NCBI GenBank assembly: GCA_003194525.1
Contig: NBIV01000072.1
Span: 1 to 64,000 of the forward strand
Length of the DNA stretch: 64,000 nucleotides
From: Gracilariopsis chorda
Taxonomy: Eukaryota > Rhodophyta > Florideophyceae > Gracilariales > Gracilariaceae
Direction of reading: 5' to 3'
The first letter of the stretch is position 1; every line of letters begins with the position of its first letter. Both the position numbers and the translations under genes were made by a program. Shown here in pieces: positions 27,038 through 53,770 of the stretch. The notes beneath the pieces were generated by a model. That model saw nothing but the letters and a program-made list of their open reading frames with translations. It was not told the origin of the DNA and searched no databases.

Positions 27038-27172
27038 CAGAGGCGGGCAATCGTGTCAAATTTTGACAGTGGTGTATCGCGTTTCGAGAACGGTATTGAG
27101 CTGGGAGGTGACATAAAGTTGGTTGGCGCCAGATTGTTGGAAATGCATGGTGGGGTACGATTCCTGATGAGA
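27038..27172 (+). repeat. flanking direct repeat X, right copy
   Basis: 135 bp counterpart of 21630-21766. It continues at 27173 into the GT-rich tandem array (AGTTTGAG...). Confidence 0.75.
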
Positions 27173-33906: not shown

Positions 33907-34455
33907 TTATGCGAGCCTTTGGTTGCTTGCGCTGTTCAAGGCTGCACGATATTCTTCACCAAACAGATCATAAAAATCAAGCTCCGGGTTGGTGCTGAAT
34001 CGTTTGTCGTTGGCCACAAACCATTCGTATGGGTATAGCTCGAACGATCGTACTCCCCACTGCAAGGCAAAGCTGATGAGCTTGACCATATTGCCCGTGC
34101 TCATGCACCCTTGTGCACCAATATTTCGGGAGCCTTAACATGCAGCTATCGGGTTGCCTGGTCCAGGTGGACCGTACACGCCACTGTGAGTTGGCGTCTG
34201 AAGCTGGAGAGGAATGCCCGAGTCCTTGTTCCGGTTGAAGATAGCACACCAGTTAGCATTGCATCGCGCTCGTTGCGGTTGCTCCCATCTGTCAACGTCC
34301 TTGGTGGTTGCGCCTTGCACACCAAGACCCAACTTGGGGAATCCATTATATTCGCGAGTCGCTTCGTATGCAACCATGTTCGGAAACTTGTTGGGTCCTT
34401 GATCAAACGTCTTGGATCGGAAGTCATTCAGTGTGACAATTGTGGGCGCCATCAC
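33907..34455 (-). pseudogene. glycosidase-like gene, C-terminal half
   Basis: 183 codons in one frame, starting at MAPTIVTLNDF (34455) and interrupted only by a TAA at 34135-34137 after NPIAAC. The second part (GNMVKLISFALQWGVRSFELYPYEWFVAN) has the look of the last strand and helix of a (beta/alpha)8 glycosidase barrel, with ELYPYEW as a candidate active-site loop. It fits as the missing end of the N-terminal half at 47024-47866 (same strand, right order). The two are separated by element G1 and copia LTR/leader H. Family assignment is by eye only. Confidence 0.55.
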
Positions 34456-34667
34456 GGGACGGGGACGCAGGGGGCCAAAAAGTTGTAATAATAAAAGCCA
34501 AAAGGGTGCTCTTCGTAGCTAAAAGCCCCAAAACAAATTGAAAACAGTGGGATCAAAAGAACTAAACCCACTCGATGAAATAAAACAACACTAGGGAGAG
34601 CAAGAGGCTCAATCCCCAAATAAAACTTCTTAACTTCTTGCTGAAACGGCGCGCAACCCAAGAATTA
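34456..34667 (-). other. short flank between host gene and G1
   Basis: 212 bp with the target-site copy AATTA at 34663-34667. It probably belongs to copia H or to the host gene. The plus strand has AT-rich AAAAGTTGTAATAATAAAAG. No gene seen. Confidence 0.3.
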
Positions 34668-35494
34668 TGAAGTGCAACGCCCTCAGGGAGGGATTCTTGG
34701 TACTTGAACGCTTTCCCGATATTATCGGTTGTGTAGTGTGTATATGAACTACGCCCCAGTAAGGTGGATATGGACACGTGGGACACGGTTTTGGGTCAAT
34801 TGGCGGTTGGCCAAAGTAGTGGATGTTGCCACGAAATGTGGAGTATTTTAGTTAATAATATTTATTATTTTCACACCCATTTCTGGGAAGCTAGTACTTA
34901 GTGCGACGGCGCACTGCCGTCGCACCAGTAAACCTTCCCCAACAAGGGACCCCAACCTGGGGAATTGGTTCTAGTTGTTGCCGCTTGCGCGCGTACTCTA
35001 CTCCTCCTTGGAGGGAAACGCCGTAAACCACGGGAAATCTAACCCCCTTGCACATCTAAAGAAACCCATCACTGGGAGTATAATTGTTCCAATCATATTG
35101 GTGTTTCGCCCTGTATAGGGAGTCCTGTCCACCGGCATTGCCGTATCTGCTCGTCGCTCTCGCGACTCACATCGTCCTCTCTTCCTCCTCTTCGCCCTTA
35201 CTTCTTCCCCTTTTTAGGGTAGCACCTCCCGCTATCCGCGGCCCTCGTGTGCGCATCCGCTCACACACCCCCACTCACGTGGAAAAATACCTCTACTGAG
35301 GATCACACCCCGCTCACGCGGATACCGATTCATCACCTTCACCTCCCTGCGCGAGTCGCGACAGGTGTCCCTGGTCTTACAAACCGGCTTCGCTGTGACA
35401 CCTCTGGGAGGGCTCTACCCAACTGGGTTCACCTCGTGAGAGGAAGATCCCGAACATCTTTCGGTGTTTTTCCCCTTTGGGGCATTGCACCACA
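34668..35494 (+). repeat. 5' LTR of Ty3 G1
   Basis: 827 bp, TGAAGTGCAACG...GCACCACA. Densely packed with small perfect hairpins, including a 10 bp stem at 34901-34925 (GTGCGACGGC / GCCGTCGCAC, 5 nt loop). No obvious TATA box. The closest AT-rich block is TTAATAATATTTATTATTTT at about 34852-34871. Confidence 0.95.
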
Positions 35495-35497
35495 AAG

Positions 35498-35515
35498 TGG
35501 TCTCCGGACCTAGAA
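35498..35515 (+). other. primer-binding site of Ty3 G1
   Basis: TGGTCTCCGGACCTAGAA, three bases after the LTR end. The leading TGG fits a tRNA 3' end. The tRNA is not identified. Confidence 0.5.
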
Positions 35516-35600
35516 TCGGCTTTTGGTTTTCCCTCTTACGAGGTTTGTTTTTATTCACCGGAAGTTCCGTGATCGTTTCCCGTCGTAACGGTATTTTTTC

Positions 35601-37775
35601 ATGTCGAGAAATCCCTCCGACGTGGAGCCAGTGGTTACGCGTAGTCGCTCCCGCGACAACGCGGACACTTCCGAAGTTCGGTTCGTACCCCATATCCCTA
35701 TACGGACAAGTTCCAGCCGTGCTGGCGCCGCTTCATCGAGGAATGATACCCCCGACCGGGAACCCTGGAACCTCCTTTTGCCCTCGTTATCACCCCCGCA
35801 GGGGAATGCAGCATCGACTCCGGCTGTTGCCGCAGTGTCCCAGGCACCCCGGCCTGCCCCCGCTGTCGCGGCTTCAAGTCCCCGTGGAACGGGCGATAAC
35901 ACCCCCCAGGGGACTTCCCTGGAATCCCAGGTCCACGCTCTGTGGACCGCCCATGACAACCTTGTAGGGGAACTAAAATCCCTCCAAGAGGTGGTCTCGG
36001 CAACCCCCGTAAAGGCGGTCGCCGAGGAACTCCGTATTTTACGGTCTGACGTCAACTCCGTGTTGGAGAGTTTGGGACAACCCGCCACCTTCATCGAAGG
36101 AGTTGAAGCCCGATTTGATCGGATTGGTGCCCGCCTGGAGACGCTGGAGCAGTTCGTCCTCATGGACAAACCATCCCCGGGTGATCCGGTAAACGAGGCA
36201 TCGCACAACGACCAGCTTGCTGGGAAGAAGAAACGCCGTCATCGACGGAAACACCACCGAAAATATTCGGACTCCGATTCTTCGACATCGTCGGAATCAT
36301 CCCGAAACCATTCGGTTAGCTCGAGCTCCTCGGACTCCGACTCGGAGGACGAGAAGCGGGGCTACTCCTCCCGCTCGAAGCGGTCATCGGCCACTGAAGG
36401 TGTGGTCCGAACCCGCCAGAAGGGGAGAACACACCCCGGTCTCCGGGAATTGAAATCGACAAACCCGGATTACCGGAAGCTTTTATCATACCGGTACTAC
36501 CGGCTCGAAGATTCGTCACTTGGACGCACGCCCCGTGGTACGGGAAAGGTGCGAGAATGCATTAAGCGAATGCAGCTCTCGCTCCGCAACCAGTATTTTA
36601 CTGGAGAGGACCCAGTCTTAGTACTGGATTTCCTATCCCGCTTTGTAGCGGAGGCCGATATCCTCGGTATGAATGAGGGACAAGCCTATTTGGCTTTACC
36701 GTATTTCTTACGGGGAGTGGCCGAGGACCAATACACCTCTGTCCGAGGATCTTCTCGCGCCTCCGAGGGAGGAATTACTTGCTGGCCGGAGGCTGTGCAG
36801 TATCTTCTGCGCTCCTACGCCACAAACACCGCTATTCAGCAGGCTATCCTCGCTTTGCGAGATACACGCCAGCGTGCTGGAGAGACCGAGACCGATTACT
36901 CGGTGCGCCTTAACAAGGCTTTCCACAGATGTGGTAACGTATACCCCGCTGGGGAGCGCAGTACCATGTTCATTGATGGTCTTGACCCGGCAATCCGGAG
37001 TTTAGTTACCCGTTATCGGGAGGACAAGCGGAGGATCACCTACCTCGAGCTGGTCCAACACGCCCGAGCGGAAGGGGATGCACTTCGTGCAAGAACTCCG
37101 AACAATCGGTCTAAATCCGCCAAGGCGTTGTTGCTGGAAAGCGAAGCTTCCTCTCTCCCGCTCACCGCGGATGGGAACCCTGGACAGGGATTTGATACCG
37201 TGTATTTAGTGCAGGGGGATGGTGTGTCGATACCCACCAGTGATTTGCCGTCAACGACGGAGATGACCCATGATACGGGAACAGAAGATCCCGTCCTATA
37301 CGGTGGTAACAGTCGGGTTCAACCCCAACGACTCCCGTTTTCAAACGGTCAATCCCGTTATCAACGTCCTGGATGGACTGACACCCGCCCTGCGGTTCGC
37401 TTCTCCGATACTCGGAATAATAATCCGCGTGTCGCGGTGCTGGCTCTCATTTGCCACCTGTGTTATGCCCATGGCCATACCTCTCCTCAGTGTATTTGTT
37501 CACTGAAGGATATGGCCAAGGTGGTGGCAAATTATGAGGCCCTCACTCCAGAGGAGAAACGTTCCGTCCCGACGGCTTCCTACCTCCGTGCTAAAACGGA
37601 CTTTTCTCACGCCCTACCACAGACCCCGCGTGCGCGGCAAGATTCATACACCCCGATTCGGGAGATCACGGAACCATCCGTTGCAACCCCCGCTTATGCG
37701 GATAGAAGCCCCCGTCAACGGGATGAAGCACTCGTTGTCGAGGAAACAAACCCACCGCCGAAGGCGGAAAACTAA
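35601..37775 (+). CDS. Ty3 G1 gag
   Basis: 724 codons from MSRNPSDVEP, uninterrupted. The N-terminus (1-150) is a Ser/Pro/Ala-rich disordered part. A predicted helix lies around residues 110-190. A basic/Ser stretch follows (KKKRRHRRKHHRKYSDSDSS, near residues 210-230). The capsid-like core is about 300-500 (RECIKRMQLSLRNQYFTGED, QYLLRSYATNTAIQQAIL, ETETDYSVRLNKAFHRCGN). A zinc knuckle C-X2-C-X4-H-X4-C (CHLCYAHGHTSPQC) lies near 617-630. The ORF ends at TAA 37773, and the protease frame (-1) is already open upstream of this point. Confidence 0.9.
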   Translation: MSRNPSDVEPVVTRSRSRDNADTSEVRFVPHIPIRTSSSRAGAASSRNDTPDREPWNLLLPSLSPPQGNAASTPAVAAVSQAPRPAPAVAASSPRGTGDNTPQGTSLESQVHALWTAHDNLVGELKSLQEVVSATPVKAVAEELRILRSDVNSVLESLGQPATFIEGVEARFDRIGARLETLEQFVLMDKPSPGDPVNEASHNDQLAGKKKRRHRRKHHRKYSDSDSSTSSESSRNHSVSSSSSDSDSEDEKRGYSSRSKRSSATEGVVRTRQKGRTHPGLRELKSTNPDYRKLLSYRYYRLEDSSLGRTPRGTGKVRECIKRMQLSLRNQYFTGEDPVLVLDFLSRFVAEADILGMNEGQAYLALPYFLRGVAEDQYTSVRGSSRASEGGITCWPEAVQYLLRSYATNTAIQQAILALRDTRQRAGETETDYSVRLNKAFHRCGNVYPAGERSTMFIDGLDPAIRSLVTRYREDKRRITYLELVQHARAEGDALRARTPNNRSKSAKALLLESEASSLPLTADGNPGQGFDTVYLVQGDGVSIPTSDLPSTTEMTHDTGTEDPVLYGGNSRVQPQRLPFSNGQSRYQRPGWTDTRPAVRFSDTRNNNPRVAVLALICHLCYAHGHTSPQCICSLKDMAKVVANYEALTPEEKRSVPTASYLRAKTDFSHALPQTPRARQDSYTPIREITEPSVATPAYADRSPRQRDEALVVEETNPPPKAEN

Positions 37776-38494
37776 CTGAGGGAGTCTCTCCTTTGGGAGA
37801 GGCGTCCTCAAGAACGAGGCTGTTGGCGCCCGAGGCGTCCTCGCCTCGCTCCCCGGTGAAAGTCCTCTCGAGGAAAGACACCGCTGACGCGGTCTCTGCG
37901 CACCTCGGTGTGTTGCGTCGCCCGTGGATACGGAGTAAAAATCCCCGGATTCCCGGTAGAGTCTTGGTCTTGGCCAAGCGCAATTATAAGGTCTATGCCG
38001 ACCTTGGCCTTGACCCCCAGTTTATGGTGAGGTTTCTCACCGTCCTGGATACAGGTGCAGGCCCCAACTTCGTTGTGGAATCATCGTTACCCCCGCTTTT
38101 GCGGTCTCGTATCCGCTCTGACGCGGTCCCCGACATTTCGGATGCGAACAACAATCCGTTACAAACGGTGGGCACAGTGGACCTCGTCGTGAGACTTGGT
38201 ACCTCTGTGGTGAAGTTGTACTTCATCGTTTGCCGTTCATTGGCAGCACCAGTCATACTGGGATGTGATTACTGCGACAGATTTGTCGACGCAATCAGGC
38301 CCCGCCTCAGGCGTGTAGAACTTGACGACGGTTCGTCGGTTCCGATTGTTCGCCGCCCGCTAAAGCGGTCCTCTCGGAAACAAGTTCCGCTCCCTGCTGC
38401 GCAGGAACCACCGCCCGCGTCCCGCGAGTCCACCAAGCTCCGCGTCGCTGCCTCGGTTTCTATACCGGCTGAGTCCCAAGTCTGGGTGCAGTAA
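37740..38494 (+). CDS. Ty3 G1 protease
   Basis: Open in the -1 frame relative to gag, overlapping its end, and normally expected to be reached by a -1 shift near 37766-37772 (GGAAAAC before the TAA). A hairpin with arms CTCTCC/GGAGAG begins about ten bases later. The domain has the catalytic LDTGAGPNFV and the downstream VILGCDYCD, a standard retropepsin. The region ends at TAA 38492-38494 right before pol opens in the next -1 frame. The TAA may be a one-base deletion or a second shift site. Confidence 0.8.
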
Positions 38495-41400
38495 ATTCCC
38501 GTCAACACGGTCTTTGGGTTATACAACCCCTCGCCTCGTTGTACGAGAAATCCCAGCTGGCGCTGGCTAATGGAATTGTCTCCATTTCCCCGGATGTTCC
38601 TTTCCGGATATTGGTTGCCAACCTTGGCAAACACCCCCAGTATCTGGTCAAACACCAAGTAATTGGGAGTGTAACCCCCCATCCTATGGGAATGCTGCCA
38701 ACAAAGATGACAGCCGCCGATGTACTCGGAGTAACCACCTCTTCTGAGGAGTTCGCCCCGCCGTCCGAAGACGTCAAGTCTAAGGAGGGGGAGGAAACCG
38801 CTACTTCAGCGTTGAACATACCGAGTAACTCGGAATTGCGAACCACACCTGTTCCACAGGACAATGCTCCATCGAGCAACGACCGGGTTGATCCGGAAAA
38901 AGCACTTGAAGCGCTGGACTTCAGCCACGTGCCAGAGTCGCACCGCGACAAACTCCGTACTATGTTACGGGAATTCACCACAATGTGGGATGGCTCGCTT
39001 GGCGAGATTAATGCAACGGAACACCGGATCGATTTAATCCCCGGTGCGCGACCGGTTGCACAACCCCCTTACAGGGCAGGTCCGAAAGCTCGGGAAGAGG
39101 AGCAGTCCCAAGTGGACAAGATGCTCCACGCAGGTGTGATTGAGCCCGCTCAATCACCCTGGGCATCCCCAGTTTTACTGGCTTTAAAGGCCGACGGAAC
39201 CTGGAGGTTCTGTGTCGACTACCGCCGGCTCAATGCCGTGACTGTTAGGGACACGTACCCCATCCCTCGTATGGACGAGTGCATTGACTCCCTTGGAGAC
39301 GCCACCGTGTTCACGGCCCTTGATGCCAATTGGGGATATTGGGAAGTACCTGTCAGACAGGAGGATCGCGACAAAACCGCATTCACCTGCCACGCAGGAA
39401 CGTACCGCTTCAAGCGGATTCCATTTGGGTTAACCAACGCCCCCGCCACCTTTCAGCGTGCAGTAGATATTCTACTCAACCGCTTTAAGTGGCGGAGTTG
39501 TCTGGTCTACCTTGATGATATTATCATCTTCTCCAACTCGTTGGACGACCATCTCACTCACGTCCGAGACGTGCTGACCGTACTCCGCGATGCGGGAATT
39601 ACCCTCAAGTTGAGGAAATGCGAGTTTTTCACAGATACTGTGAAGTATCTGGGTCACATTATCCGTCCTGGACGGTTAGCGATCGAGAAAGCTCGAGTCA
39701 AATCCCTCGTTGAGGGGAAAGAACCCCGTACTCAAACGGAACTGCGCTCCTTTTTGGGGCTGGTCAACGTCTATCGACGGTTTATCCCGAACTTTTCGGA
39801 TACTGCAGTGCCCCTAAACGCGTTGTTGCGAAAGGGGAACCCCCCAAAACTGGGAACATTTACGCCCGAGCAATCGGAAGCCTTCAACTCCTTAAAGGAG
39901 GCTGTCACATCAGCACCAATCCTACATCTCCCAAAACTTGGGTTGCCATACTCCGTAGATACGGACTCGAACGACTACCAAGTCGGGTGTGCTCTTTTTC
40001 AAACCACCCCCGAAGGGGAACGACATCCAATTGGTTATTGGTCGCGCTCGCTCAATGTTCATGAGCGGAACTACTCCGTATCGGAGAAAGAGTGCCTCGC
40101 CGTCGTATGGGCGATGACCACTCTGCGCCCCTACCTTATGGGAATTCATTTCACCGTGTACACGGATCATTCCTCATTGAGTTGGTTGATGAATATCTCC
40201 GACCCGTCGGGACGCCTCATGCGCTGGAGACTCCGCCTCGCGGAATATGACTTTCAAGTCATTTATAAAAAGGGCGCGCAGAACACCCAAGCCGACGCTC
40301 TGTCGCGGTTACCCACAAGTGGGGAAGCACTCCCAACGGAGGATGATGAAGTCCCATGTTTCATGGCTATAGACCCGGATGATCCGGAATATGCCGTCGA
40401 GGCTAGGCCAGAAAACTGGGACGAGGATGCCGATTTTGACGAACTACTCGCATCGCGAGATAAATCTGAGAACCCGTTACCGGGTAACTTTGTACCGGTA
40501 TCACCGGAAGAAAGGATCCGAGAACAATTCGGCGACCCATTCTGTACGAGAATTCGTGCCCGTATCAACGGTGGTGAAGATCTCCCTTTCGGGGTAAACG
40601 ACAAAGTCTACCTCGTAAGAAAGGTCGAAGCCCGCCCACAGATTGTGGTACCACATTCCCTGCAATCGCGGGTGTTACACCTATCACACTACGCCCCCAT
40701 TGGAGGTCACCCAGGTGGGAGGAAACTCTACCTAACCCTGCGAAGGGATTTCTATTGGCCCGCAATGGCGGTGGATTGCTACGCAACCGTGCGGTTTTGT
40801 AGCGAATGCGCGAAGAATCGCGTCAAACTCCGCAAAAATGCGAAGAAGATGAAACTATTCCCCGCAAGGGCGCCACTCGAGTTTATCGCAATTGATCTTC
40901 TCGGACCACTACTTACCACAAAACGTGGAAACAAGTTCCTACTTGTCATCACCGACCGCTTTTCTAAGCTGGTACGGACTGTCCCTCTTCGGAGGATAAC
41001 CGCTCTCACGGTGGCCCAGGCTCCAGTGACGCAATGGATTTTTGTCTACGGTCCCCCTGTGGAGGTGCTCTCTGACAACGGGAAGCAGTTCGTGAGCAAG
41101 TTCTTCCAGGATGTTTGTCGCATCCTGGATGTCAAGAACTTGTTCACGACTACCTACCACCCCCAGTGTAATGGGCAAGTTGAACGGTTTAACTGGACGT
41201 TACTCGCGGCGTTACGTTCCTACGTCGCTGACCACCCAACGAATTGGGATCTCTACGCTGATGCGGTAACCTACGCGTACAATACGCAGGTACACCGGAC
41301 TACCGGAGTTTCGCCATTCGAGTTGGTTCTATCTAGAACACCCCCGCCTGTGGCGCTGGAACCCCAAGCTACCTTGGACAATTTCCCATCTGTGGGTATC

Positions 41401-43353
41401 TACCGGCAGCAATGGAAGCAATGGCTTTCCAAGCTGGTCCCCGCTGCGCGGAAGTCTATGGCACGGGCCCAAGCCACTTACAAGCGGGATTTTGATGCTC
41501 GCTTGCGAGGGAAACCGTCCCCGATTCGGGCAAATAAGTACGTCTTCATCAGGAAGAAATACTACAACCCGGAACGGGAGAAGCGTCACAAACTCTCGCC
41601 TGTGGCGGATGGACCCTTCAAGGTCATCTCTGTTAACACCGACACTGTCGTGGTAGAGATGGGGGACACGCACGAACGGATTTCCCGTGATCGTGTTGTC
41701 CTTGTCCCTCCTCCCTCGTCAGAGGTAGTCCTGGATCCAGGCAACCCCATTTCTACGGACTCTGGAACACCGGAACCATCCGGGAGTACTAGACCTACGG
41801 TACTACCAAACCCCAGCCGGGGACTCTCAGACCTACCGACTCTGTCGGACTCACCGGCTCAGCCGGGTAATTTGGGCCCCTCAGCGCCCGCCCCTACCAC
41901 GTCCGCCCCACTGGCGCGCATCTATACCCGCCAGGCGGGGAATGTTATCCCTTATCCCGCCGCTCCGTCTAAGGAGGGGGAGGAGAACACTCGTCTTCGA
42001 GGACCAATATCGCCGTCGCAACGGGAAACACACCGTAACATACGGAACACTGACCGTGAAGCACGGAGTATGTCACGCGACACTAATCCCACGTTCCCGG
42101 GCAGTGTTGTGCAACAGGAACCAGACGCGCAGGCCCCGCAAAAGCCGCAAATACACCGTTTGTCACGGGAAAACGAGAAGCCTCACACCAATACCGCAGC
42201 AGCGGAAAGGCAATCGCCCGATGCCTCGAAGCCGCCGTTCGCGGAAGTCCCCGCGGAAGCGGTTCAATCAGGTCGATCAGACCTGCGCCTTGCGGAGAAG
42301 GGGCGCCCAGATACGCCGGCCTCACAGGGAAATACCCACACCCCTCTTGGGGAAAAAGGCAGCCAAGCTGCATTTGAAGCTTTAAGCCCTGGCTCGCAAG
42401 CACCGGAAACGCCTCCCGTCGTTGACGGAATCGACGCCCCCGCTAAGGGGAATAATTTGCGTTAACCCCCGCATCGCTGCGGCGAAGAACCGAGGAACTC
42501 GGGAAAAACGCGCGCCATCGCACGCTCGAAACCGGTCGTACCTGACGCTGCTCCTCCTCATGGAGATGGTGCACCGCGCTTAGCGGCAATTCCCCTGAAA
42601 AGGGTATCATCGGCACCTGCCCGGCACCCCCCAAAGGGGAATTTTGACCAAAATACCGGTGTACCGGAGTTAGCCCCAGGCAACCCGTCAGTAGCCGGGG
42701 ACACCACGGCATCGCCGGAACGTATGGTGCAGAGCGCTCGTGCGCCTGGCAGGGAGGCGGTTTGCCACCCAATCACCCTGTCGCACGGGACCCCCCAGGG
42801 GATTGTGGAAATGCCGACCCCGCAGAAGCGGTCATCTTCCCGCAAACTCGCGGTTCGTGAGCTCAACCGTGAAGGTCGAGCCCAAGTCCCCCGCCGACTG
42901 GCGGTTCGCCCGCAATACTGCGAAAGCAGAAATGAACCTGCCCCAATGGGGAATGACTTGCTGGTGAAAACCGTGGCACCACACACCCTCTTGAGGGATA
43001 TCTTCCCGCATGAGCAGCGGCCGCTATCACAGCGCACGGCAACGCCGGAGTTATCGCCGAACACCCTGCTAAGGGACATTGTACCGCACAGCGGGCAGCT
43101 TCCGCAGGGAAGTACAACCACCACCCGGCACGGCCGGCAGGTCTACGAACGAGAGTTCGTAGTAGACCGACTTGTCGGACACACCTGGGACCAGGATGGT
43201 ATTCTACAATACCGCGTCCGCTGATACGGGTACGACCCCAGTGGGGATACGTGGGAGCCAATCGAACACCTCCCACGGTCGCAGGTCGTGCGATACCACC
43301 GTCAAACGGGAACTGCAGCTCCAGCCACGCTGGTAAATGCCCAAGTTGGGTAA
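38473..43353 (+). CDS. Ty3 G1 pol: RT, RNase H, integrase, chromodomain
   Basis: One frame with two in-frame stops (TAA 42463-42465, TGA 43222-43224). RT about 39060-39680: VDYRRLNAVTVRDTYPIP, FTALDANWGYWEVPV, GLTNAPATFQRAVD and catalytic YLDDIIIF. RNase H 39900-40300: VDTDSNDYQVGC, SVSEKECLAVVW, YTDHSSLSWL. Integrase: zinc end (HLSHYAPIGGHPGGRKL, then CSECAKN), first Asp in FIAIDLLGPL, second in LSDNGKQFVS, third Glu in NGQVERFNW. A long Pro/Thr/Arg-rich linker follows. The chromodomain (43140-43310) reads DGILQYRVR, stop, YGYDPSGDTWEPIEHL, with TGA in place of the cage Trp. Either the copy is damaged at these two codons or the chromodomain needs readthrough. Confidence 0.9.
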
Positions 43354-43544
43354 CGTTGCCGCGCGAGCGGAGAGCGAAAGGAAAGGATAACAAGACAAGG
43401 TCCGTCGAAGACGGGGAACTCAACCGAGAAGCACCGTTCTAAACGGGAAAGTTTATTCAAGGGAGCAGCTAGCTCCCCACAATACTACACTACACTAACT
43501 GGCATAGCCAGGGAAAGAAGAACCAGGAAACTGGACTAGAGGTT

Positions 43545-45353
43545 TCACTCACCCCCATCGTCCGGGGCGTAACCCCCAGCAAGGCGGTAGGCCAACGCGT
43601 CCGCCATGGTGGTGGCATCCCCCGATACCTCTGCAGCGCTAAGACCGGCACCCCGGAGGAAACCTGCGATGATTTCGTTTTCATTCGCCGTCACCCCGCT
43701 GGGGATAGAAAGTCCGGCACTTGCCGCCGAAGGGCCAGCAGTCGGCTCGGCCGGAGATACCCCCTCTGGGAAAGCTTCCGCGCTAGCGCCGGTCTCCTCT
43801 ACGTCCATCTCCCCGGGTTCTTCCGGTTCGTTATCGACCATTGGGTCATCCCCGCCGTATGCGCGGTAGTAGTCGTCAGAATCGACGTACCCCACCGTCT
43901 GGTCTTCCGGCACATGCCGGGGCGTATCGCGAAGCTCGCGCCCCTCCTCGGAGGAAATTTCCCGGAACTCCCAGGGGTCGAAGTAGATAAAATCCCCCGC
44001 AAGGGCGGTGTTTCTACCGAGTCCCGGACCACCAGTGTTACCGCTGCCGCCATCCAGACGACCGCTTTGCTCCAGCGGGACCTCACTCCAGCTAACGCTG
44101 TCGATGTACCCAAGTAATTGGAGGACCTCTTCATTGTTGGCCTGGCCCGCAAGGGGGATGCGAAGATCCAGGTTTCGGATCGCTGCCCGCACACGCGGTT
44201 GAAGGAACCAGAGACGATACTGGTCGTATGCTTCGTTGAGGATATAAGCCGCAGTGCGGGCCGCCCACTCCGTAACCACTACGGACCACAACCCCGACCG
44301 GGGATCCTGCATGAGCAGCGAACCGAGGTACCTAAGTACCGGCGGGAGTTCTATGTAGCACCCCCGGCAGGCTTCATGGAAGCGCCACCACTCGGGGAGT
44401 GCTACATACCGACCTAGTCGGTGAGGCGGCGCAATCCGCTCTATCTCCACGTTCTGATACGGGATAAAATACCCGAATCGGGATCGCCAACGCAGCTCGT
44501 AGCGGATGAAGTTTTGGAGAAAGTTGGACCGGTATTGCCGGGGAAGGTACCTGAACTCCGCCCGAATAGTCGGTCGCTCTCAGCAAAGGGCTTCTTGCCG
44601 CGCTGCGGGGAGATTCCTCCAAGAGAGGGTCTCGAGGCGGAACAGGTTCTCGCCGTATCCAATCTCCCCGCGAGTGCGGAAGTAGCTAACGTCAAAGCCA
44701 AACTCCGGTGGGACCGGTACATCGAATGGAGCCTGGCTCTGCCGTTGGTACGCCATCCGCGTCAACGCGGTCTGCGCCGCAGCGACGGTCTCGCCCGAAT
44801 TTCTTCGGAAGTGGTGACGCGGAATCGCAATCCGGTGACGCCAATCCCACGACGTGGTGACTGCTCTGGGCAGATCCCCCGGAAGGGTGTCTGAGCCATC
44901 CGCATAAGCGGTGACCAATCCCTCATTGAGGACAGCGACCGGGTGAAACCACGGGGCAAGGCGCAGGCGCGACGCGTGATTCCGATTCATCGGGTTGAGC
45001 AACACAAGGGTGTTGTAGGTTGGCCAGTTGGACACCGGAGTGGTTCCGGAGGACACCACCGAAGGTGGTAATGCGAAGGGATGGTCGGCTGCGGCAGCCA
45101 TATTCCCCGGTTGTACCGGATTTCGATCGCCCCGAGGCAGGGGAACTGACCGGAAACCGGTGGTGTATCGCCCGAGAAGTCTCGGAGGTTGGCTGTGGTT
45201 GTTGATGTTGTTGTCGTCGTTCATTTTTCCCTTTTGGAGGGTGGCTGTTGTTGTCGTTTGTGTGCTTGATGACTCTGGTGCAGAGGGATTTACCGGAGAA
45301 CCGGAGACAGAGCACGCGCTTTTATCACCCATTTTCGTCTGGGAATCCTCCAC
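43545..45353 (-). CDS. antisense ORF of Ty3 G1, unknown function
   Basis: Runs opposite to gag-pol, starting 36 bp inside the 3' LTR (45353) and ending at 43545, in one frame of 602 codons with a single TGA at 44580-44582 (after QEALC). The N-terminal 70 residues are low complexity (Thr run, Asn run, basic patch). The middle is globular and Trp/Tyr/Arg-rich (FGFDVSYFRTRGEIGYGENL, then PEWWRFHEACRGCYIELPP). The C-terminal 100 residues are acidic (EPEEPGEMDVEETGAS). No zinc finger, transmembrane segment or catalytic motif is evident, and I recognise no family. Plant Tat/Ogre-type Ty3 elements carry antisense ORFs in the same place, but I cannot show homology. Confidence 0.7.
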
Positions 45354-45376
45354 GTCCGCGGTCGTTTTCCCGTCTT

Positions 45377-45388
45377 AAGGGGGGGATA
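45377..45388 (+). other. polypurine tract of Ty3 G1
   Basis: AAGGGGGGGATA directly before the 3' LTR, the plus-strand priming site. Confidence 0.7.
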
Positions 45389-46214
45389 TGAAGTGCAACG
45401 CCCTCAGGGACGGATTCTTGGTACTTGAACGCTTTCCCGATATTATCGGTTGTGTAGTGTGTATATGAACTACGCCCCACTAAGGTGGATATGGACACGT
45501 GGGACACGGTTTTGGGTCAATTGGCGGTTGGCCACAGTAGTGGGTGTTGCCACGAAATGTGGAGTATTTTAGTTAATAATATTTATTATTTTCACACCCA
45601 TTTCTGGGAAGCTAGTACTTAGTGCGACGGCGCACTGCCGTCGCACCAGTAAACCTTCCCCAACAAGGGACCCCAACCTGGGGAATTGGCTCTAGTTGTT
45701 GCCGCTTGCGCGCGTACTCTACTCCTCCTTGGAGGGAAACGCCGTAAACCACGGGACATCTAACCCCCTTGCACATCTAAAGAAACCCATCACTGGGAGT
45801 ATAATTGTTCCAATCATATTGGTGTTTCGCCCTGTATAGGGAGTCCTGTCCACCGGCATTGCCGTATCTGCTCGTCGCTCTCGCGACTCACATCGTCCTC
45901 TCTTCCTCCTCTTCGCCCTTCCTTTTCCCCTTTTTAGGGTAGCAGCTCCCGCTATCTGCGGCCCTCGTGTGCGCATCCGCTCACACTTCCCCACTTACGT
46001 GGAAACATACCTCTACTGAGGATAACACCCCGCTCACGCGGATACCGATTCTTCACCTTCACCTCCCTGCGCGAGTCGCGACAGGTGTCCCTGGTCTTAC
46101 AAACCGGCTCCGCCGTGACACCTCTGGGAGGGCTCTACCCAACTGGGTTCACCTCGTGAGAGGATGATCCCGAACGTCTCTCGGTGTTTTTCCCCTTTGG
46201 GGCATTGCACCACA
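45389..46214 (+). repeat. 3' LTR of Ty3 G1
   Basis: 826 bp counterpart of 34668-35494, followed by the target duplication AATTA (46215-46219). Confidence 0.95.
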
Positions 46215-46764
46215 AATTATGTCAAGGATCACTAAGGGTCAGACCCTCGGCTTCCGGTTAGACACTCCGGATGTGAAGTGGATTCTGCAGCCTACCTACC
46301 TCTGCACTAACCAGAAGCAGGCGCATACAATCCTTACAGGGCTTCCCGAGGAGAGCTACTAACAGCGGGATATGCTTTCACTCTATACCCAAGCTGGCCC
46401 TTTGCAGGAAAGGTTGCACGGCACGTCGCCTGCGGACAGCTTCCCGTCAACCACCTCCATCCGGGAACCACCAGGTCTTTCGACCGTCACCGTTATCCGA
46501 GCAAAGCTCTGGTGGGGGCTCACAGACGACATAAACGCCTTTGGTACACACTACCCGTCTCCCATCCACGCCAAGGGCGCTTCAACCGGTCTCAGCGACG
46601 GTAATGCCCCACCCCAAGTATGCACAAAGCGGCAAGCGCCTCACTAAGTGCGGTTGAGAGTTGATGGTTGATAGTAATAGTTGAGACAGTTGTGGGGGTG
46701 AGGACTTGAGATGTTGGTCGGTTGTTGAGGTCAGTTCAGACCGAAGTCCGAAGCTCAGAACCTC

Positions 46765-46773
46765 TTTTTATAG
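46765..46773 (-). promoter_or_regulatory. TATA box in the copia H LTR
   Basis: Minus strand CTATAAAAAGAGG, a textbook TATA box about 250 bp from the LTR start. Confidence 0.45.
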
Positions 46774-46959
46774 TGTTTAGAGGCACTACAAACGAGCCAA
46801 ATACGCATTTCTACTTGCTAGTTACTCATGTGTGCGTCTAGGTTACTCCATTGGCTTCTAGAGACCTCTGGAGCTGCACACTAACCAATAATAAAGCGAC
46901 AATTTGCGCCAGCATCACTAAAATACTGTAGTCTTTGCTGGGCCAACAAAGCGTGCAAT

Positions 46960-47012
46960 GTGGTAGACACTACTGGAACATTCTACACGTGTGTTCCAGC
47001 AATGTCTGGCAC
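46960..47012. repeat. inverted repeat at the start of LTR H
   Basis: Arms 46960-46980 and 46992-47012 (GTGGTAGACACTACTGGAACA against TGTTCCAGCAATGTCTGGCAC, shown as 21-base arms) pair with only three mismatches around an 11 nt loop. It lies just inside the LTR start. Confidence 0.7.
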
Positions 47013-47023
47013 ATTCCGCAACA

Positions 47024-47866
47024 TTTGCGAATGACAAAAATGATGGGCTTTCTGGAATTGAATCGTCGAAAGGCTCGAATCCGCGCAGCAACGTACTTGC
47101 TCCACTTGCTGAAAGCAGTATTGGCTTTTGCGTCATTGGAGGGCCCAGGAAACAGTTGAATAAAGGTGTTCATGCAGAAGTTGTTCGGCGTAGTGGCGCC
47201 ATTTGCAGGGTATGACTCGGCTCCAACGCCAATCCCAAAGCGTAAGTAGTTGACATTCGTATTATCTTCAAAGCGAGCAACAAACTGTCGAAGAGCCTGA
47301 GCGTATTTGGTGTACACTTCAGCCCGCCAGAACTTGGGAAGTGGCAACGCGCCCAGTGAAGTGGTGCCTTGCGTCGTGCCATCCGGGCACTGGAATATCA
47401 AGTCCGGTTGGTCGAGAATATACTGTGGCGTTGCGGACTGTCCAGCAGGGAAACTCTGGTCTTCCTTCTGAACGGCGGGCCATACCAGCAGATTTACCTT
47501 TTGGCCTCTCGCCACCCACGGTGCCATCTGCTGCTCCACGAATCCCCAATCGAAGGATCCCCTGCCGTTGGCATCACGTTTGTCGAAGGCAGCCCAAGGA
47601 ATAACAACGGTTCCACCAGACGTGAGGCGGTCTTCGTGAGCACACACAATGTTCCGATTGGCTAGCTTGCCGTCTTTCCTGATTGTAGCCTCAGGAAGAT
47701 TGGAGAAAACTACGTACAAGCCTGGGGCAAAGCCATTTCTTGCGGTGGTGGAGTGGGCGCCTTTTAGTTGATCGCAAGGAGCAAAGACAGCGTCTAACGG
47801 ATCAGGGTTGCAGAGCGCAAACCGCACAAGCGTGAGCAACAGAGCTGAGTACAGATGCGCGGCCAT
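47024..47866 (-). pseudogene. glycosidase-like secreted protein, N-terminal half
   Basis: Start chosen at MAAHLYSALLLTLVRFALC (47866), because this is a clear signal peptide. An in-frame Met at 47980 would put 38 non-hydrophobic residues before it. The mature part reads like the first strands of a (beta/alpha)8 glycosidase: GLYVVFSNLPE, GGTVVIPWAAFDKRD, WVARGQKVNLLVWPAVQ, KYAQALRQFVARFED and YLRFGIGVGAESYPA, with the Glu of GAES as candidate general acid. It ends after KPIIFVI where LTR H begins. The C-terminal half is at 33907-34455. Uninterrupted up to the insertion, so the break may be recent. Confidence 0.6.
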
Positions 47867-48102
47867 TATATCACCCACGAACAGCATGTATCCGGTACGC
47901 GGCTTGACACTCGAGAGTCGGGCGGATCGAAAGCGCGGGTCGTTCTTCTGTATGGTAGGGCACGAGGGCCGCAGTTTCACGTTCCAACGCAGTCCGCGAG
48001 CTTTTGAGGATTGCAGATATTAATTTTTAAACGTGCGCTTTTGGGGGATGCCAGCACCGCTCACGAATAATTACGTCCAACAATTAAAACGAACCGTACT
48101 GT
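47867..48102. other. upstream region of the glycosidase-like gene
   Basis: Short region between the gene start and copia E. It carries the E target duplication ACTGT (48098-48102). The gene's original promoter probably extended into what is now the far flank of E (from 53940). Confidence 0.35.
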
Positions 48103-48378
48103 TGTTTTGTGGTAGTCCGACATCGGACTGATGGTCATTGTCGTTGGTGCAGTGGGAGGACGCCCGGTGTAACAACAAAACATACGACACAAGTCTGCCG
48201 GGAGCTTCTGGTTGCTCCGAGAGATTTGGGGCGGTTTAAGTAGGGATACTACGCGACCACTCGGTTACCAGAGAGACTATCGTTGTGATTTTGTGCACGT
48301 ACATGTTGGCTAGCTTGGTATCAAGTTGTACGTGTTCCTCACCCCACCGTGAGCTTCTCGTACGTCACCCAATCCACA
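48103..48378 (-). repeat. 3' LTR of copia E
   Basis: Minus-strand TGTGGATTGGGTGACG...CCACAAAACA. The last pol codons (VDWVTYEKLTVG and stop at 48339) lie inside it. Confidence 0.85.
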
Positions 48379-50018
48379 TACCCCCCCGCCGCGTTAGTAT
48401 CTTTCTTTGACAATCGATACTGACAAGGTGCAAAAAGGCAAAATAATGTTGCGTTATCGGCTTCCTGCCATTTGTTGGCGATTTGTGTGACACCTTTCGC
48501 AGTTTCAATGTTCCAGTAGCCTTGCGCAAACATTTTGTTCAGATTAGCTGTGAAGTGCAATGCTCTCAGAAAGAGATTCTTGGTACTTGGTTGATTTCCC
48601 GAATGTTTCGGTAATGTCGTCATTGCATGAACTACGAACACTAACGGTAGATTTGACACGTGGGATACGGAAAAGTCAATTGACGGTTGGCCACAGTAGT
48701 GGGCATGAACCACCAAAGTGGAGTAATTTAGTTAATTTTATTTATTATTTTTGTACCCATTTTTGGGATGGTTAGTACTTACGGCGCCGGAAGGTTGCCT
48801 TCGCACCACTAAACCTTCCTGAATAAGGGAACCCAACCTGGGGAATTGGGTCTACACCTCACCGCCTTTGCGTGTTCTCTACTCCTCTTTGGAGGGAAGC
48901 ACCGTCACATACGGGAAGTCTAACTCCCTTGCCTACCTAAAGGACCCGAGTATTCGGATTTTTATTTCAGCATTCTTGGTTTTCGCCTTATATAAGGTTT
49001 ATTTACCGCCACTGCCGTTAGTCTTCGTCACGACACTCGTGACTCAGCTCCCCCTCTCGTTTCCTTTCACAGGGTGGCTTTCCCTTTACCCACGGCCCAT
49101 GCTCGCGCGTGTAACTTACGTGGAAACCTCACCTCTCTAGAGGACAACCAACCCCATACATCGCTCCTGCGGATACGCGATTCTTGCCTCAGCCTCCCTG
49201 CGCAGGTCGCAATGGGTGGTCTCGGCATTACAGCCAGACATAATCGTGCCACTCCTGGAAGGGCTCCACCCCACTGGGCTCACATCTAACGAGAAAATAT
49301 CCCGAACGTCTTTCGGTGCGCTCCCGCTTCCGGGCATTGCACTACAAGCTGCCTGTCTCCGACTTCGCTTTGTTAATGCGTCCGCACGATTGAAGGTTCC
49401 TGGGATCCAAGTGATCTGGTCAACATCTCCTAATTCGAACGCATCTCTTATCATCATTACCGTTTTTTTCAGCCCGTATTCCTTGTTCTCTTGCAACGTC
49501 GTGATCATGTCGAATTGTGATTTTGAGTCTACAAATATGCGATGCGGTATCTTTGTGCTCAGAAATTTGCTCTGTAGTGAGAGTTACATGTCGAAGCCGC
49601 GATCTTCCGCCTCCGAACAGGCTAACATCTCCGCACCGAACGAAGAGTATGTTATTCTTTGGTTTTTAATGCTATTCCAGTATAGAGGGTGGATTATGGG
49701 TTCATCGTCGAACATAGTTCTTATTTTGAGCATGCTTATGATACCGGTTTGGCCGTAAAGATTCTCATTTCTGCTGTATGAGGCATATCAGAGACTAATC
49801 AGTGATGCATGTTGTATTCTGACGGGTCTGATGTATCGGATCTCCGGCTCCAACGACTGTATCTCTAACAGCATCGCATTTGCGTCTCTGAGGTGCTTCA
49901 ATCTAAGATTCCCTAACGTTTGTTGCATGAAGGAGGTGACTAACGAGGCTTGAAGTAAGACAGCTGATCCCATGTATATCAGTGTTCCTGCCATGGGTCG
50001 ATATTGCTGAATTGCCTA
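48339..50018 (-). pseudogene. copia E RNase H and pol C-terminus
   Basis: Same frame as the upstream pol ORF. The TAG at 50016 separates it from RT. RNase H reads YMGSAVLLQASLVTSF, then YSSFGAEMLACSEAEDRGFD, FVDSKSQFDMITTLQ, and TWIPGTFNRADALTKR. Other in-frame stops are a TGA at 49788 and one near 49590. The frame is interrupted by the solo LTR (48551-49346) and resumes at NLNKMFAQGYWNIETAKG, ending at 48339 within the 3' LTR. No frameshift outside the insertion. Confidence 0.8.
48551..49346 (+). repeat. solo LTR of the G1 family
   Basis: 796 bp, TGAAGTGCAATG...GCACTACA, with a perfect 5 bp duplication AGCTG (48546-48550 and 49347-49351), inserted in copia E. It is clearly homologous to the G1 LTR but diverged. 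Many of the small hairpins are kept with both arms changed. It remains after recombination between the two LTRs of a former full element. Confidence 0.9.
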
Positions 50019-52580
50019 TTCTGTTGGTTTCTCGTTTCTTACGCGTTTGCGTGCTCTAAAGAGAGGGTTTGGGTGTATTCTTGTCATGGTTGGGTATATG
50101 GAGAGTGTAAGATTCGTGTCATCGTCTTGTAGGATATCGCACCCTGCAAATGATATTTTGTCTCCTATGCGAATCTTTCCTACCTCGAATTCTTTCTGCA
50201 AATCCGCGATAAACTTCTCGATTCGTGTGATGGATCCTGCTACCAGTAGATCATCTACAAGCTTGGCAATTATGAGCATGATTCTTCCTGTGGTGTCTGT
50301 TTTCAAGAATAACTGATTCACGCCGAAGACGCGCTCCAATCCTGCTTGACCGAGCATCCATGTCTCAATGCGCTTCGCCCACTTTCGGCCGGCTTCTACT
50401 ATTCCGTACGGAAGCTTGGTGAGTTTCCATAATATGCCTTTCCTTTTCGAGAACTCTGGTGGCGGTCTCACAAAGATTTCTCGTGTAATGAGTCCACTTT
50501 GCAGATACGCACCTTTGACGTCTGCCACACCGAATACGAAGCCAAGGCATAGTGCGATACTCAGAAGCATTCGAACTACCAACATGTCCGCGTTCGAGCA
50601 ATCTTTCCGGATCTCGTCTTTCAGCTCGTCCCTATTACCATGTGTAACGAGCCTGGCTTTCAATTTGAGTTGGTGTTCTTCGTCTTCTTTGACCTTGTAC
50701 ACTGTGTGAGAGGATATGATGTTTGCGGTTTTGGGTACGTCTCTTTCCTCGACTTCCGTGTATGCGTGTACCCAGTTGTCATCATGCTCCTTCTCGATAT
50801 CTTTCTTCAGAATCCATGGTGGTGCAAATTGCATCTCCCGTCTAGTGACTTGTCTCCAGCTGATGACCCCTTGTAACTGTTTGAGTACGTTCTGCTCGTC
50901 GGATTCTAGAGAGCATTGCATGTCTATATTCGGGTTGTTTTGTAGTGGTGATGCATAGCTCCCTATCTCCTTCTGTGCTCGCTCTGCTTGTAGAAGTTCT
51001 GCCTTTTCTTGGGAAATCATCATGGCATCAGCAACTGCATCTTTTCCAGGATCGGTAGTGTCACGTGGAGAGAGTGTGAGATGGAAATAATCCTCCATGA
51101 GGCCTTCAGATAACTCCCGTGCTAGTTCGGAATTAGGTCGTAGTCTGATATCATTGTATCCAATCTTCGATATCGGTGCTTTGTCGCTGGTCCGTACTTC
51201 CACCAGGTGTTGATGGGGTTGTACGACCTTCCTTGGTTTCCAGACGTCGGGCTGGTTCTGTGCAGTTGTGCGGAAGAAGAACAAGATGTCGTCACCTGGT
51301 TTTATAGCCGATTGCGGGATTTTGGAATGGTCGTTTGATTTCAATAACCGATGAATCGCTCTTGTTGCTGATTGCTCTTTGTAAGCAGTCAGCAGCTCTT
51401 CTGTCACGACTTTTCTTGGTGCCCCTAAGATGGCGGGGGCGTACCCTTTCGCTAGCTCAATGCTGCTCATGGCCTTTGACCCGCTGAAGCAATTAGAAAA
51501 GAATATGGCTCTAAACAACAGAAGGCGGTCACTTCCACTGGTGTTTTCGAATTGGAGTTTCTCTAATATCCGCTTCACGACGCCTTTCTTCCTTTCGACG
51601 ATCCCTGTCTTATTATGTCTCCTAACTGGTCGAGCCTTGTAAGATACTCCCTGGTTGTGCAAGAATTCTTTCACAGCTTTAGAGTTCATTTCGTCATCAG
51701 CCGACAGTGCATCTGGTCTGCCATGTCGGTGCAACCATTCACTCTCGAGGACCTGTATTATAGTCTTCGCTTCTCTGTCTTGTGTGATCACGGCTTCCGA
51801 GTAGCCTGTACCTGCATCTATCATGTGGAGTAAAATATACTTAGTATTCCGGATGGAACAGAACACGAAGTCAATTTGTATCTCTACGTTGAATGCTTCG
51901 TTGACGTGTGTGATAGATATTTTCTTTGACGGAACGGGCATTCTTGATCGTGCACATACTGAACAGTTCTCCGATATGCGCTTGACTTCATTCTGTAGTT
52001 CTGCGGAATCGTATCCTGCCCTTTGACATAATTCGACAATCTCGTCCGGGTGCCCGTGAGTTAATCGATGTAACCGTTTAGCTAACGTCTTTGGCCTACA
52101 TTTCCCTACTCTTGTGTTCAAGAGGGCCTTCACCGATGGCACGATCGCGATTCTGGACCGTTGATTGAGCGTTCCTTCTTCGGTGATATAAATTTCAAAC
52201 TCACGTGGTTCGGTGTCTGTGGGTCTCTTCACACTCAAGACGGGTGGTTGTTGTTGATAGTTGGTTACCCTATATTTCTTCACATCCAGTCCAATCGTCA
52301 AGGGCGAGTCGTCGTCTACAAGATCAAACGTGAGATCTACGGTCTTATCGTTCATGTCTTCAATCGATAGCGTCCATGAGAAGATGACGGGTTTGGGGTC
52401 AATGCCCTCGTGTTCCCAACCTCGATTATAGACCTTCCTAGGCTTGTCTGGCTCAAACGGAATCTGTAGCACTTCACATAGCAACAATGCAGCTTCTATA
52501 CCACCAGATGACACTGGATTGCCTTTATCCATTATGGGGTTCGGATTTTTAGTGAAATCCGGACCCCTTACTGAAAACAC
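50016..52580 (-). pseudogene. copia E pol: protease, integrase, RT
   Basis: 854 uninterrupted codons. The N-terminus is protease-like, with the catalytic triad apparently DKG (PIMDKGNPVSSGG) and a C-terminal LTIGLDVKKY. Pre-integrase zinc residues: HRLTHGH and CSVCARS. Integrase core: first Asp in EIQIDFVF, second in ALSADDEMNS, third Glu in KTGIVERKKG. RT: KLKARLVTHGNRD, FGVADVKGAYLQSG, TKLPYGIVEAGRKW and LVDDLLVAG (LVDD in place of YVDD). The ORF is long and open, but the DKG triad and the downstream stops suggest it is no longer active. Confidence 0.85.
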
Positions 52581-53770
52581 GGTTTGGCATCTCCTTTCCT
52601 GTCCTTCTGATCATTCGGGTAACGTGGTTTCTTAGACTGTAGAAATCTCGTTTTCTTTGAGTATTGTTCATTGCTATTACGATCGTTAGGGTATGTTCCG
52701 GGCGTCTCGTTTCCCATCTCTAGTTGATTCCTATCGCGTTCTTCTGTGGCATACCTTTTGAACCGACGGCGTTTCTTGGGATTGCGGTTTGTGTTCATCA
52801 TTGCCTAAGCAGATTCGGCACGTTGATCGGACACTTTTTCTTCTTCAAGATCCTTTCCTTCGAGTTCAGCCTCACCAAGCACGTTGACAACGTCTTCGAG
52901 TCCTATCCATACAAAGCTTCCATCTTCGTCATGGTTACGATGGAATTGCTGGGTCGCGTTTTCTAGTACTTCTAGAAAAGATTCGATGTCGTGGTCGGAA
53001 GATTGTTCTGGGTACTTTGCGTGTAGTTTTTTGAGGAATCCTACGATCTTTTCGAGACGGTGTAGATTGATGGAAACTACAGCTTCGACCTCTCGTTTTT
53101 TTGTCTTGCAGACGTTCACGACATTGTTCATCATGTTTGAGAATGTCTGAGAGGTCAATCCGGCGTTTGAGAGACATGCTATGGCTAGGTTTTGGCTCTC
53201 GCTTGAGTCTTGATCGGATTTTGTGAGGTCGAGATAGGACATGGCAGGTCCCGTACAGCGGTCTAAATAGTCTGCGATAGACTCTGAACTTTTTCGTTCG
53301 CAGGAATGCGCCTTGTTGTGTAGCCTTGCCATTCTGCGCAGACGATCTGTCGTAGAATTTTTTGCAACAAGGTTTACAATCTTCTTGATTATTTCAAGTT
53401 GGCAAATATTGTGTTCTTTCTTAACTCTTAGTCTGAGCTCTCCCTTGCGTACCGCTTTCTTCACAATTCCCTTCTTTCCAAATTATAAAGACCGGTAAAG
53501 AGTCATCGAAAGCGTTCCAGCTTCTGCTTTAGCCCGATTGTCGCCGTAGGTCGCACGAGCTTCTAGATTCTCTGCCAATTCGAATACGGCTTCGCGCCAT
53601 ATCAACTTGTCTGTCCCATGCCTAAGCTTGGGTGGCGTCATTATGTTGTTAGTATCGAAGTCGCCCTCTGGGCCCATAACTGTTTTGTGGTAGTCCGACA
53701 TCTGACTGATGTTCATTGTCGTTGGTGCAGTGGGAGGACGCTCGGTGTAACAACGAAACATACGGCACAA
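52568..53770 (-). pseudogene. copia E gag
   Basis: One frame with in-frame stops at 53483 and 52805. Gag-like helical region: RLRRMARLHNKAHSCERKSS, SIADYLDRCTGPAMSYLDL, NLAIACLSNAGLTSQTFSNM, then a C-terminal basic tail (NRNPKKRRRFKRYATEERDR). No CCHC knuckle is visible; the basic tail may replace it. The first part overlaps the LTR and the primer-binding site (MNISQMSDYHKTVMGPEGD). Its end overlaps pol: TGTTTTCAGTAA, where a -1 slip on TTTT would enter the pol frame. Confidence 0.7.
53661..53676 (-). other. primer-binding site of copia E
   Basis: TGGGCCCAGAGGGCGA, four bases inside the 5' LTR. It shares its first eleven bases with the motif of copia D and nearly so with B2 and C. Confidence 0.6.

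Follow-up and report, generated by a model that had tools for sequence, protein, structure and literature searches.

The published account of the genomic RNA of the yeast retrotransposon Ty3 describes an A-rich mosaic in which some regions are stable and others dynamic; about 24% of its nucleotides are paired with high probability (PMC11381356). For MS2, satellite tobacco necrosis virus (STNV), parechovirus and hepatitis B virus, the cited accounts describe many dispersed, degenerate stem-loops that contact coat protein (PMC6281560, PMC4751978, PMC3593212, PMC5431903, PMC7612645), and Sirevirus copia elements of plants are described as carrying conserved motifs in their non-coding regions (PMC2829016). 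Here, we analysed a 64,000-nucleotide stretch of the red alga Gracilariopsis chorda (assembly GCA_003194525.1, contig NBIV01000072.1, positions 1 to 64,000; hereafter, the window) that contains G1, a Ty3-type long terminal repeat (LTR) retrotransposon. G1 is filled along its whole length with short perfect hairpins, and this array is very probably maintained by selection. The original prediction, made from the letters of the window, held that no described element was known to have this property; in agreement, no description of such a hairpin-array element was found among the literature matches listed, at the level of titles and abstract openings, a scope that left preprints and most subscription papers outside. 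G1 belongs to a known class of elements, but its genome-wide structural design is apparently undescribed.

The density of perfect inverted repeats with loops of 1-6 nt and arms of 5 bp or more was 20.3/kb in G1 and 5.4/kb elsewhere in the window. When arms of 4 bp were admitted, it rose to 49.1/kb in G1 and 20.0/kb outside. Hairpins with arms of 4-10 bp had been claimed from end to end of the element, and the excess is real, although about two fifths of those with arms of at least 4 bp are expected by chance. The six hairpins that had been cited as examples were all present (34901-34925 with 10-bp arms; 39663, 39888 and 41927 with 6 bp around a 1-nt centre; 40074 and 41498 with 5 bp). When 1-kb bins were compared with 20 dinucleotide shuffles each, z ranged from 2.2 to 7.8 across the 12 bins of 34001-46000 and from -1.8 to 2.7 in the other 52, and the hairpin excess ended at the G1 borders.

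Permutation of synonymous codons gave the same picture within the open reading frames (ORFs). Hairpins of 5 bp with loops of 3-4 nt numbered 29 in gag as compared with a mean of 6.2 (z 9.4) and 55 in pol as compared with a mean of 9.9 (z 15.6), while z in four control ORFs of the window was -1.2 to 0.1 (-1.7 to 0.1 for the 4-bp set), the copia and other reverse transcriptase (RT) ORFs thus staying at null level. G1 was therefore far above chance under both dinucleotide- and codon-preserving nulls, and codon choice in G1 is shaped by the hairpins, as had been proposed. The accompanying claim that neighbouring copia elements read normally was borne out by the shuffle and synonymous tests, but a related solo LTR nearby carries nine hairpins of the same kind.

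The hairpin unit proved to be narrower than first described, spanning 11-14 nt, mostly 12-13; it usually has a 3-5-nt loop and feet of CC (5') and GG (3'). The excess lay mainly at outer spans of 11-16 nt, with 13 nt the commonest (76 of 227 non-overlapping hairpins with arms of at least 5 bp); loop 0 and loops of 9-12 nt were near expectation, the largest departure being 22 versus 13.0 for 5 bp with loop 10. A CC-hairpin was accordingly defined as CC-N2, a loop of 3 or 4 nt, and N2-GG, 11-12 nt in all. G1 without its 3' LTR (10.7 kb) contained 125 CC-hairpins as compared with 11 in shuffles, and an extra 68 CC-foot hairpins of 5 bp with loops of 3-4 nt were found in G1, some of which overlap the 4-bp set. 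Density was 10-19/kb across the 11 bins wholly within G1 and mostly 0-1/kb elsewhere in the window, with the exception of the bins of the related solo LTR (7 and 2 CC-hairpins) and one further bin with 2. As originally noted, the LTRs, gag, protease, pol and 3' region were alike in this respect: every part of G1 carried 9-20 CC-hairpins/kb, with peaks in the later portion of the LTR (20.1) and in the leader (18.9).

Pooled over G1, a second family termed G2, and three fragments, perfect 5-bp hairpins with loops of 3-5 nt numbered 308 as compared with 81 in shuffles, while stems with one inner mismatch were near expectation (G.T, 121 versus 110.6; A.C, slightly above at 143 versus 119.4). An inner pair was added to a 4-bp stem at the chance rate of 27-28% if it left a loop of 1-2 nt, but in 46% of cases if it left a 3-nt loop. 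Outward extension of 5-bp stems was rare (13%, 19% and 25% for loops of 3, 4 and 5 nt). The foot was polar: its first two bases were C in 64-71% of 500 hairpins of spans 12 and 13, and at span 12, CC..GG occurred 308 times versus 145 expected, and GG..CC 200 times. CC..GG pairs of span 12 were zipped to a 4-nt loop in 140/308 cases versus 16/128 in control stretches of the window, and those of span 13 to a 3-nt loop in 83/327 versus 3/121. A CC foot was present in 46% of 171 5-bp hairpins of G1 and in 45% of 105 at the G2 locus L026, whereas in 18 other loci the commonest start accounted for 9% of 676. Loops were poorer in G and C than the remaining sequence, with no clear enrichment of GNRA or UNCG tetraloops or of DNA GNA triloops, as judged by eye from the loop lists. 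Phasing with the reading frame was absent (first bases 18/13/18 over the frames in gag and 25/26/30 in pol). Hairpin centres in G1 showed a preferred spacing, with 70 pairs at 18-22 nt versus 41.3 expected and 36 at 27-33 nt versus 55.7; in controls, the 4-bp set showed no preferred spacing (z -1.5 to 1.6).

The proposed check by RNA folding also came out in favour of structure. In 200-nt windows of the plus strand, the mean folding-energy z was -1.74 for G1 (57 windows) and -1.19 for G2 (42 windows), as compared with -0.13 (85 windows) and -0.07 (102 windows) for controls. On the minus strand, the values were -1.57 for G1 and -0.98 for G2, and controls over both strands ranged from -0.07 to -0.25. 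An A following the GG foot was more frequent on the plus strand than after other GG (43% versus 35%), a weak hint that the sense RNA is involved.

The original prediction had also called for a search of the source genome for relatives with the same property; in this genome of 91.3 Mb (1081 contigs), G2 and further families were found to share the array, as does the diverged solo LTR of the window. G1 itself is present in at least 40 copies; among the matches listed, the 39 besides the window copy were all 98% identical to a 1.5-kb query. G2 was found in L026 and L029. Its 583-bp LTR stretches match each other at 99.5%, the identity between its pol and that of G1 is 64% by alignment (62% by tblastn), and its hairpins end at its LTR boundary. 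Eight RT fragments (L040-L047), 72-78% identical to G2, gave 5-bp z values of 6.2, 5.8, 2.2, 2.3, 3.1, 1.3, 1.1 and 5.3, respectively. The two with the lowest values, L045 and L046, have seven stops each and 0 and 3.0 CC-hairpins/kb, as compared with 3.6-6.5/kb in the other six and 0.3/kb in the control set; L041, which is 98% identical to L040, retained z 5.8 despite six stops in its best frame. In a random survey of 20 loci of 10 kb each, the bins with at least 5 CC-hairpins/kb all fell in three loci (L025, L026 and L027), where they coincided with sequence of the G families. More distant relatives showed little: the decayed L015, whose best piece is 53% identical to G1 in amino acids, was slightly raised at most (1-3 CC-hairpins/kb in several bins), L010 (25-45% to G1) and L019 (27-35%) had no clear hairpin excess, and two scans of viral contigs showed no relatives. 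The hairpin trait is thus common to several families of the G clade. Two further structures were seen at the surveyed loci. L026:469-1465, immediately ahead of G2, comprises a G1-type LTR stretch (469-1294) and, after it, part of this LTR in inverted orientation (1325-1465). L018:5099-5543 and L022:8143-8719 are inverted-repeat clusters that have no CC foot, with no G1 match at either locus.

Conservation between families was examined in both directions with five of the ten sequences of an RT alignment (G1, G2, L040, L043 and L047); the near duplicates L041 and L044 (98% and 93%) and the weak or decayed L042, L045 and L046 were dropped. Hairpins with loops of 9-30 nt served as controls, and the counts are non-independent, each family pair being counted both ways. 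Strict 5-bp hairpins were fully paired in the other family in 56/243 cases as compared with 24/496 controls, and 30 of these 56 were paired through compensatory change, as compared with 6 among the controls. Where both sides of a pair had changed, pairing was restored at a rate of 0.617 in strict hairpins versus 0.377 in controls, and at 47.1% versus 36.2% in a looser hairpin set. Between the pol genes of G1 and G2, 19/149 mapped 4-bp hairpins were shared in place, as compared with a mean of 1.3 at 30 offsets. The non-coding LTR pair behaved similarly, with 20/60 hairpins fully kept (7 compensated) versus 8/110 controls (3 compensated), and some hairpins of the solo LTR in the window are compensated against G1.

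Variation within G1 was assessed in eight copies, with L001 as the reference, variants counted in the other seven, and stems defined by leave-one-out. Shared variants were depleted in stems (5/1023 versus 84/3443 elsewhere; p 1.7e-5), while singletons were not (33/1023 versus 124/3443; p 0.63). With each of the eight copies as the reference in turn, odds ratios were 0.09-0.38 for shared variants and 0.68-0.89 for singletons, none of the latter significant. Loops and long-loop controls showed no depletion. Amino acid identity of stem codons was not consistently reduced relative to the rest, either in pol (0.686 versus 0.629 for G1 stems; 0.588 versus 0.648 for G2 stems) or in gag (0.638 versus 0.518; 0.514 versus 0.538), and synonymous difference was lower in stems in three of four comparisons (0.489 versus 0.603, 0.409 versus 0.648 and 0.526 versus 0.614). 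Collectively, the compensation, the depletion of shared variants in stems, and the amino acid and synonymous results point to selection acting on the fold rather than to a mutational hairpin generator.

Such a generator would consist of template switching in short quasi-palindromes during reverse transcription, writing perfect hairpins that have no function. It predicts perfect Watson-Crick pairs, a folded strand with a loop of at least 3 nt, ubiquity, and loss in dead copies. We nevertheless consider it improbable: propagated variants are depleted in G1 stems, stem codons show no consistent loss of amino acid identity, hairpin counts in the copia and other RT ORFs of the window stay at null level, the trait is not clear in L015, L010 and L019, remoter Ty3 relatives within this genome, and foot polarity, narrow size and spacing would not be expected of it. 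There is next to no chance that the array arises as a by-product of its base composition, its codon usage or low sequence complexity; the G+C content of G1 is above that of most of its surroundings, but the dinucleotide and synonymous nulls were exceeded several-fold, direct repeats in G1 were not raised in the binned shuffle analysis, and no tandem repeats were reported at 34000-54000. Very improbable, too, are dyad-symmetric sites that a dimeric protein would bind in duplex DNA at intervals of about two helical turns. The outer CC/GG is palindromic and the spacing of about 20 nt in G1 would suit such sites, but the inner arms vary in sequence and yet are complementary, and the complementarity halts at a 3-nt loop, a limit that a protein reading the duplex does not have. 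Duplex-DNA dyads were rejected on this inner-pair difference, and since the halt at 3 nt corresponds to a steric limit of folding, the hairpins very probably act as a folded single strand.

A folded strand could serve purposes other than protein binding. In the most serious alternative, local hairpins on both strands would block annealing of the sense strand to antisense RNA or cDNA, leaving less long duplex as a target of host silencing or as a dead-end product, with the stems themselves too short to be duplex targets. The principle has been described for Q-beta replicase templates, in an account that gives a rule of fewer unpaired GC (PMC6913131). Pairing restricted to Watson-Crick bases suits both strands, both strands fold better than shuffled sequence, outward extension of stems is limited, loops are G+C-poor, and G1 contains antisense ORFs. 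However, neither the choice of CC rather than GG at the 5' foot nor the narrow size is explained, the antisense transcription is putative, and unpaired G+C in predicted folds of G1 drops only modestly (per 200 nt, 36.4 to 33.2 for the plus strand and 33.9 to 29.0 for the minus strand). Avoidance of double strands is thus an unlikely explanation, though less so than the other rivals. Ordered RNA structure, one of the roles originally suggested, is correct insofar as G1 folds beyond shuffled sequence; as ordinary ordered structure, it fits badly, because G.U pairs are not tolerated, both strands fold about equally well, stems rarely extend, and the unit is narrow with a polar foot. Among the suggested roles of silencing evasion, packaging and translation pacing, packaging is tentatively favoured.

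The best overall explanation is a selected array of single-strand hairpins that are most likely dispersed Gag-binding packaging units, to which we assign a probability of roughly 0.45. The narrow size, polar foot, preferred spacing and, within the sample, confinement to one clade agree with a recurrent binding site of a clade-specific protein. The hairpins would act in a single-stranded stage, as genomic RNA and perhaps also as minus-strand cDNA. Their size, foot, spacing and free positioning would make them a repeated ligand site, with one hairpin and a short single-stranded spacer per copy of Gag, bound through its CCHC knuckle. On this view, a dispersed signal for packaging and condensation would run through the whole transcript and make it a preferred Gag substrate. 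A CCHC knuckle is present in the Gag of both G1 and G2, and the ligand may be G1's own Gag, an assignment that we make tentatively. It is rather doubtful that the whole single-stranded genome forms a quasi-regular lattice of hairpins of about 12 nt and spacers of about 8 nt in which each unit is the site of one coat protomer. If true, a red algal retrotransposon clade would have adopted a lattice format in which one sequence specifies, element-wide, both the proteins and the assembly of the particle.

Several results weigh against this explanation. G.U wobble pairs were not tolerated in the hairpins and the two strands folded about equally, with a non-significant difference, neither of which is predicted by a purely sense-RNA role; the lack of wobble tolerance suggests either that the hairpins are required on both strands or that their stability must pass a strict threshold. 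The loops share no motif, and the thermodynamic gain is modest in both families. In G2 the spacing peak was weak (30 versus 21.6; z 2.1), five fragments had theirs displaced to 23-26 nt (15 versus 6.5), and the spacing bins were picked after the curve had been seen. At the homologous place, 117/243 hairpins were broken with no compensation, which indicates that most individual hairpins turn over. Synonymous difference was unreduced in G1 pol stems (0.612 versus 0.600). Within G2, ten copies offered too few shared variants: with L030 as the reference, 3/644 fell in stems versus 8/3689 elsewhere (p 0.22), 8 of 10 references leaned in the opposite direction non-significantly, and two references gave 0 in stems.

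Judged by its sequence, G1 is a young Ty3/gypsy (Metaviridae) LTR retrotransposon. The ends of the element match those given in the original prediction (Table 1). The LTR pair aligned over 828 columns with 807 matches, 20 mismatches and 1 gap, and the termini TGAAG...CCACA are flanked on both sides by AATTA. Three different frames are used in the window copy, one each for gag, protease and RT-integrase. Pfam domains in the pol ORF were RVT_1 (217-375), RT_RNaseH (441-570), Integrase_H2C2 (704-761) and rve (779-875); no Pfam match of its own was found for the gag ORF. By motif pattern, CHLCYAHGHTSPQC at 37452 is taken to be the Gag knuckle and DTGA at 38048 to mark the protease. G1 thus combines LTRs and a target-site duplication, RT and RNase H ahead of integrase, and a Gag knuckle with an aspartic protease. 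Most protein matches were nameless; the named homologues of gag were all from Agarophyton chilense, as were two named pol homologues, and the closest species-named rhodophyte proteins to G1 are those of this alga. A Mediator-13 protein of the host shares 63% identity with its Gracilaria domingensis counterpart, and together these matches point to a red algal host near Gracilariaceae. Neither antisense ORF had a tblastn match within L009-L028, including the G2 locus L026.

Table 1. Features of G1 and of the related solo LTR, in window coordinates (CC-hairpins as defined in the text)
Feature	Position	Strand	Remarks
Element G1	34668-46214	+	Ty3-type LTR retrotransposon
Target-site duplication AATTA	34663-34667 (left), 46215-46219 (right)		Assigned from sequence
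5' LTR	34668-35494	+	TG...CA ends; CC-hairpins 9.1/kb in first 330 nt, 20.1/kb in remainder
gag ORF	35601-37775	+	724 aa; CC-hairpins 12.0/kb
Gag CCHC zinc knuckle	37452-37493	+	CHLCYAHGHTSPQC; candidate hairpin-binding domain, putative role
Protease region	37776-38538	+	DTGA at 38048; CC-hairpins 11.8/kb
pol ORF	38539-42465	+	1308 aa; RT, RNase H, integrase; CC-hairpins 10.2/kb
3' region	42466-45388	+	Contains two antisense ORFs; CC-hairpins 11.6/kb
Antisense ORF	43545-44450	-	301 aa; no Pfam match; 5-bp hairpin z 2.4 (synonymous permutation)
Antisense ORF	44580-45353	-	257 aa; no Pfam match; 5-bp hairpin z 6.2 (synonymous permutation)
3' LTR	45389-46214	+	CC-hairpins 17.0/kb
Longest cited hairpin	34901-34925		10-bp arms, 5-nt loop
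Hairpin CCGC...GCGG	39405-39417		G2 has CCGA...TCGG
Hairpin CCGTC ctg GACGG	39663-39675		Identical in G2
Hairpin CTCCG tat CGGAG	40074-40086		4-bp forms recur in G2 with compensatory change (CTCT...AGAG, TCTG...CAGA)
Solo LTR of G1-related family	48551-49361	+	70% identical to G1 LTR; 9 CC-hairpins (11.1/kb)

Elsewhere in the window, the repeats of one copia element, at 48103-48378 and 53681-53939, enclose the solo LTR. The left part contains an inverted repeat of 1119 nt (1-1119 and 10755-11873), 97% complementary and 9.6 kb apart. The segment 26001-30000 has a strong skew of G over C (0.30 and 0.43), and direct repeats lie near 27157-28586. An Rfam scan of the window at the gathering threshold gave 0 matches, and a tRNA search gave 0.

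G1 and its relatives offer a clear case in which selection on the nucleic-acid fold along a whole retrotransposon, coding and non-coding, can be read from sequence in several families. They provide a natural system for the study of how packaging, silencing or reverse transcription dictates codon choice, and a simple signature, CC-N2-3-loop-N2-3-GG, that can be searched for in other genomes.

Genome-scale ordered RNA structure has reportedly been recognized by Simmonds and colleagues in some positive-strand RNA viruses, and G1 likewise folds beyond shuffled controls along its whole length. RNA-type pairing accepts the G.U wobble, but the hairpins of the G families do not, and G1 further differs in its uniform unit of 11-14 nt, in its polar foot, and in being a retrotransposon. 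G1 shares with Ty3/gypsy elements the LTR ends, the 5-bp target duplication and the order of gag knuckle, protease, RT, RNase H and integrase; in RNA structure it is unlike Ty3, as the available part of the Ty3 description contains no uniform array of short hairpins (PMC11381356). Strong local structure is described as averting duplex formation in Q-beta replicase templates (PMC6913131), which are an in vitro system, while unpaired G+C is only slightly reduced in G1. As in Sireviruses, short motifs are repeated within an LTR retrotransposon, but the arms in G1 vary in sequence and also fill the coding sequence. The dispersed viral packaging signals are similar in that many degenerate stem-loops with a common motif are distributed genome-wide, although the common motif of G1 lies at the stem foot rather than in the loop, and its protein binding is putative. 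In number, the 60 such regions given for parechovirus compare with the 125 4-bp CC-hairpins that G1 carries in 10.7 kb.

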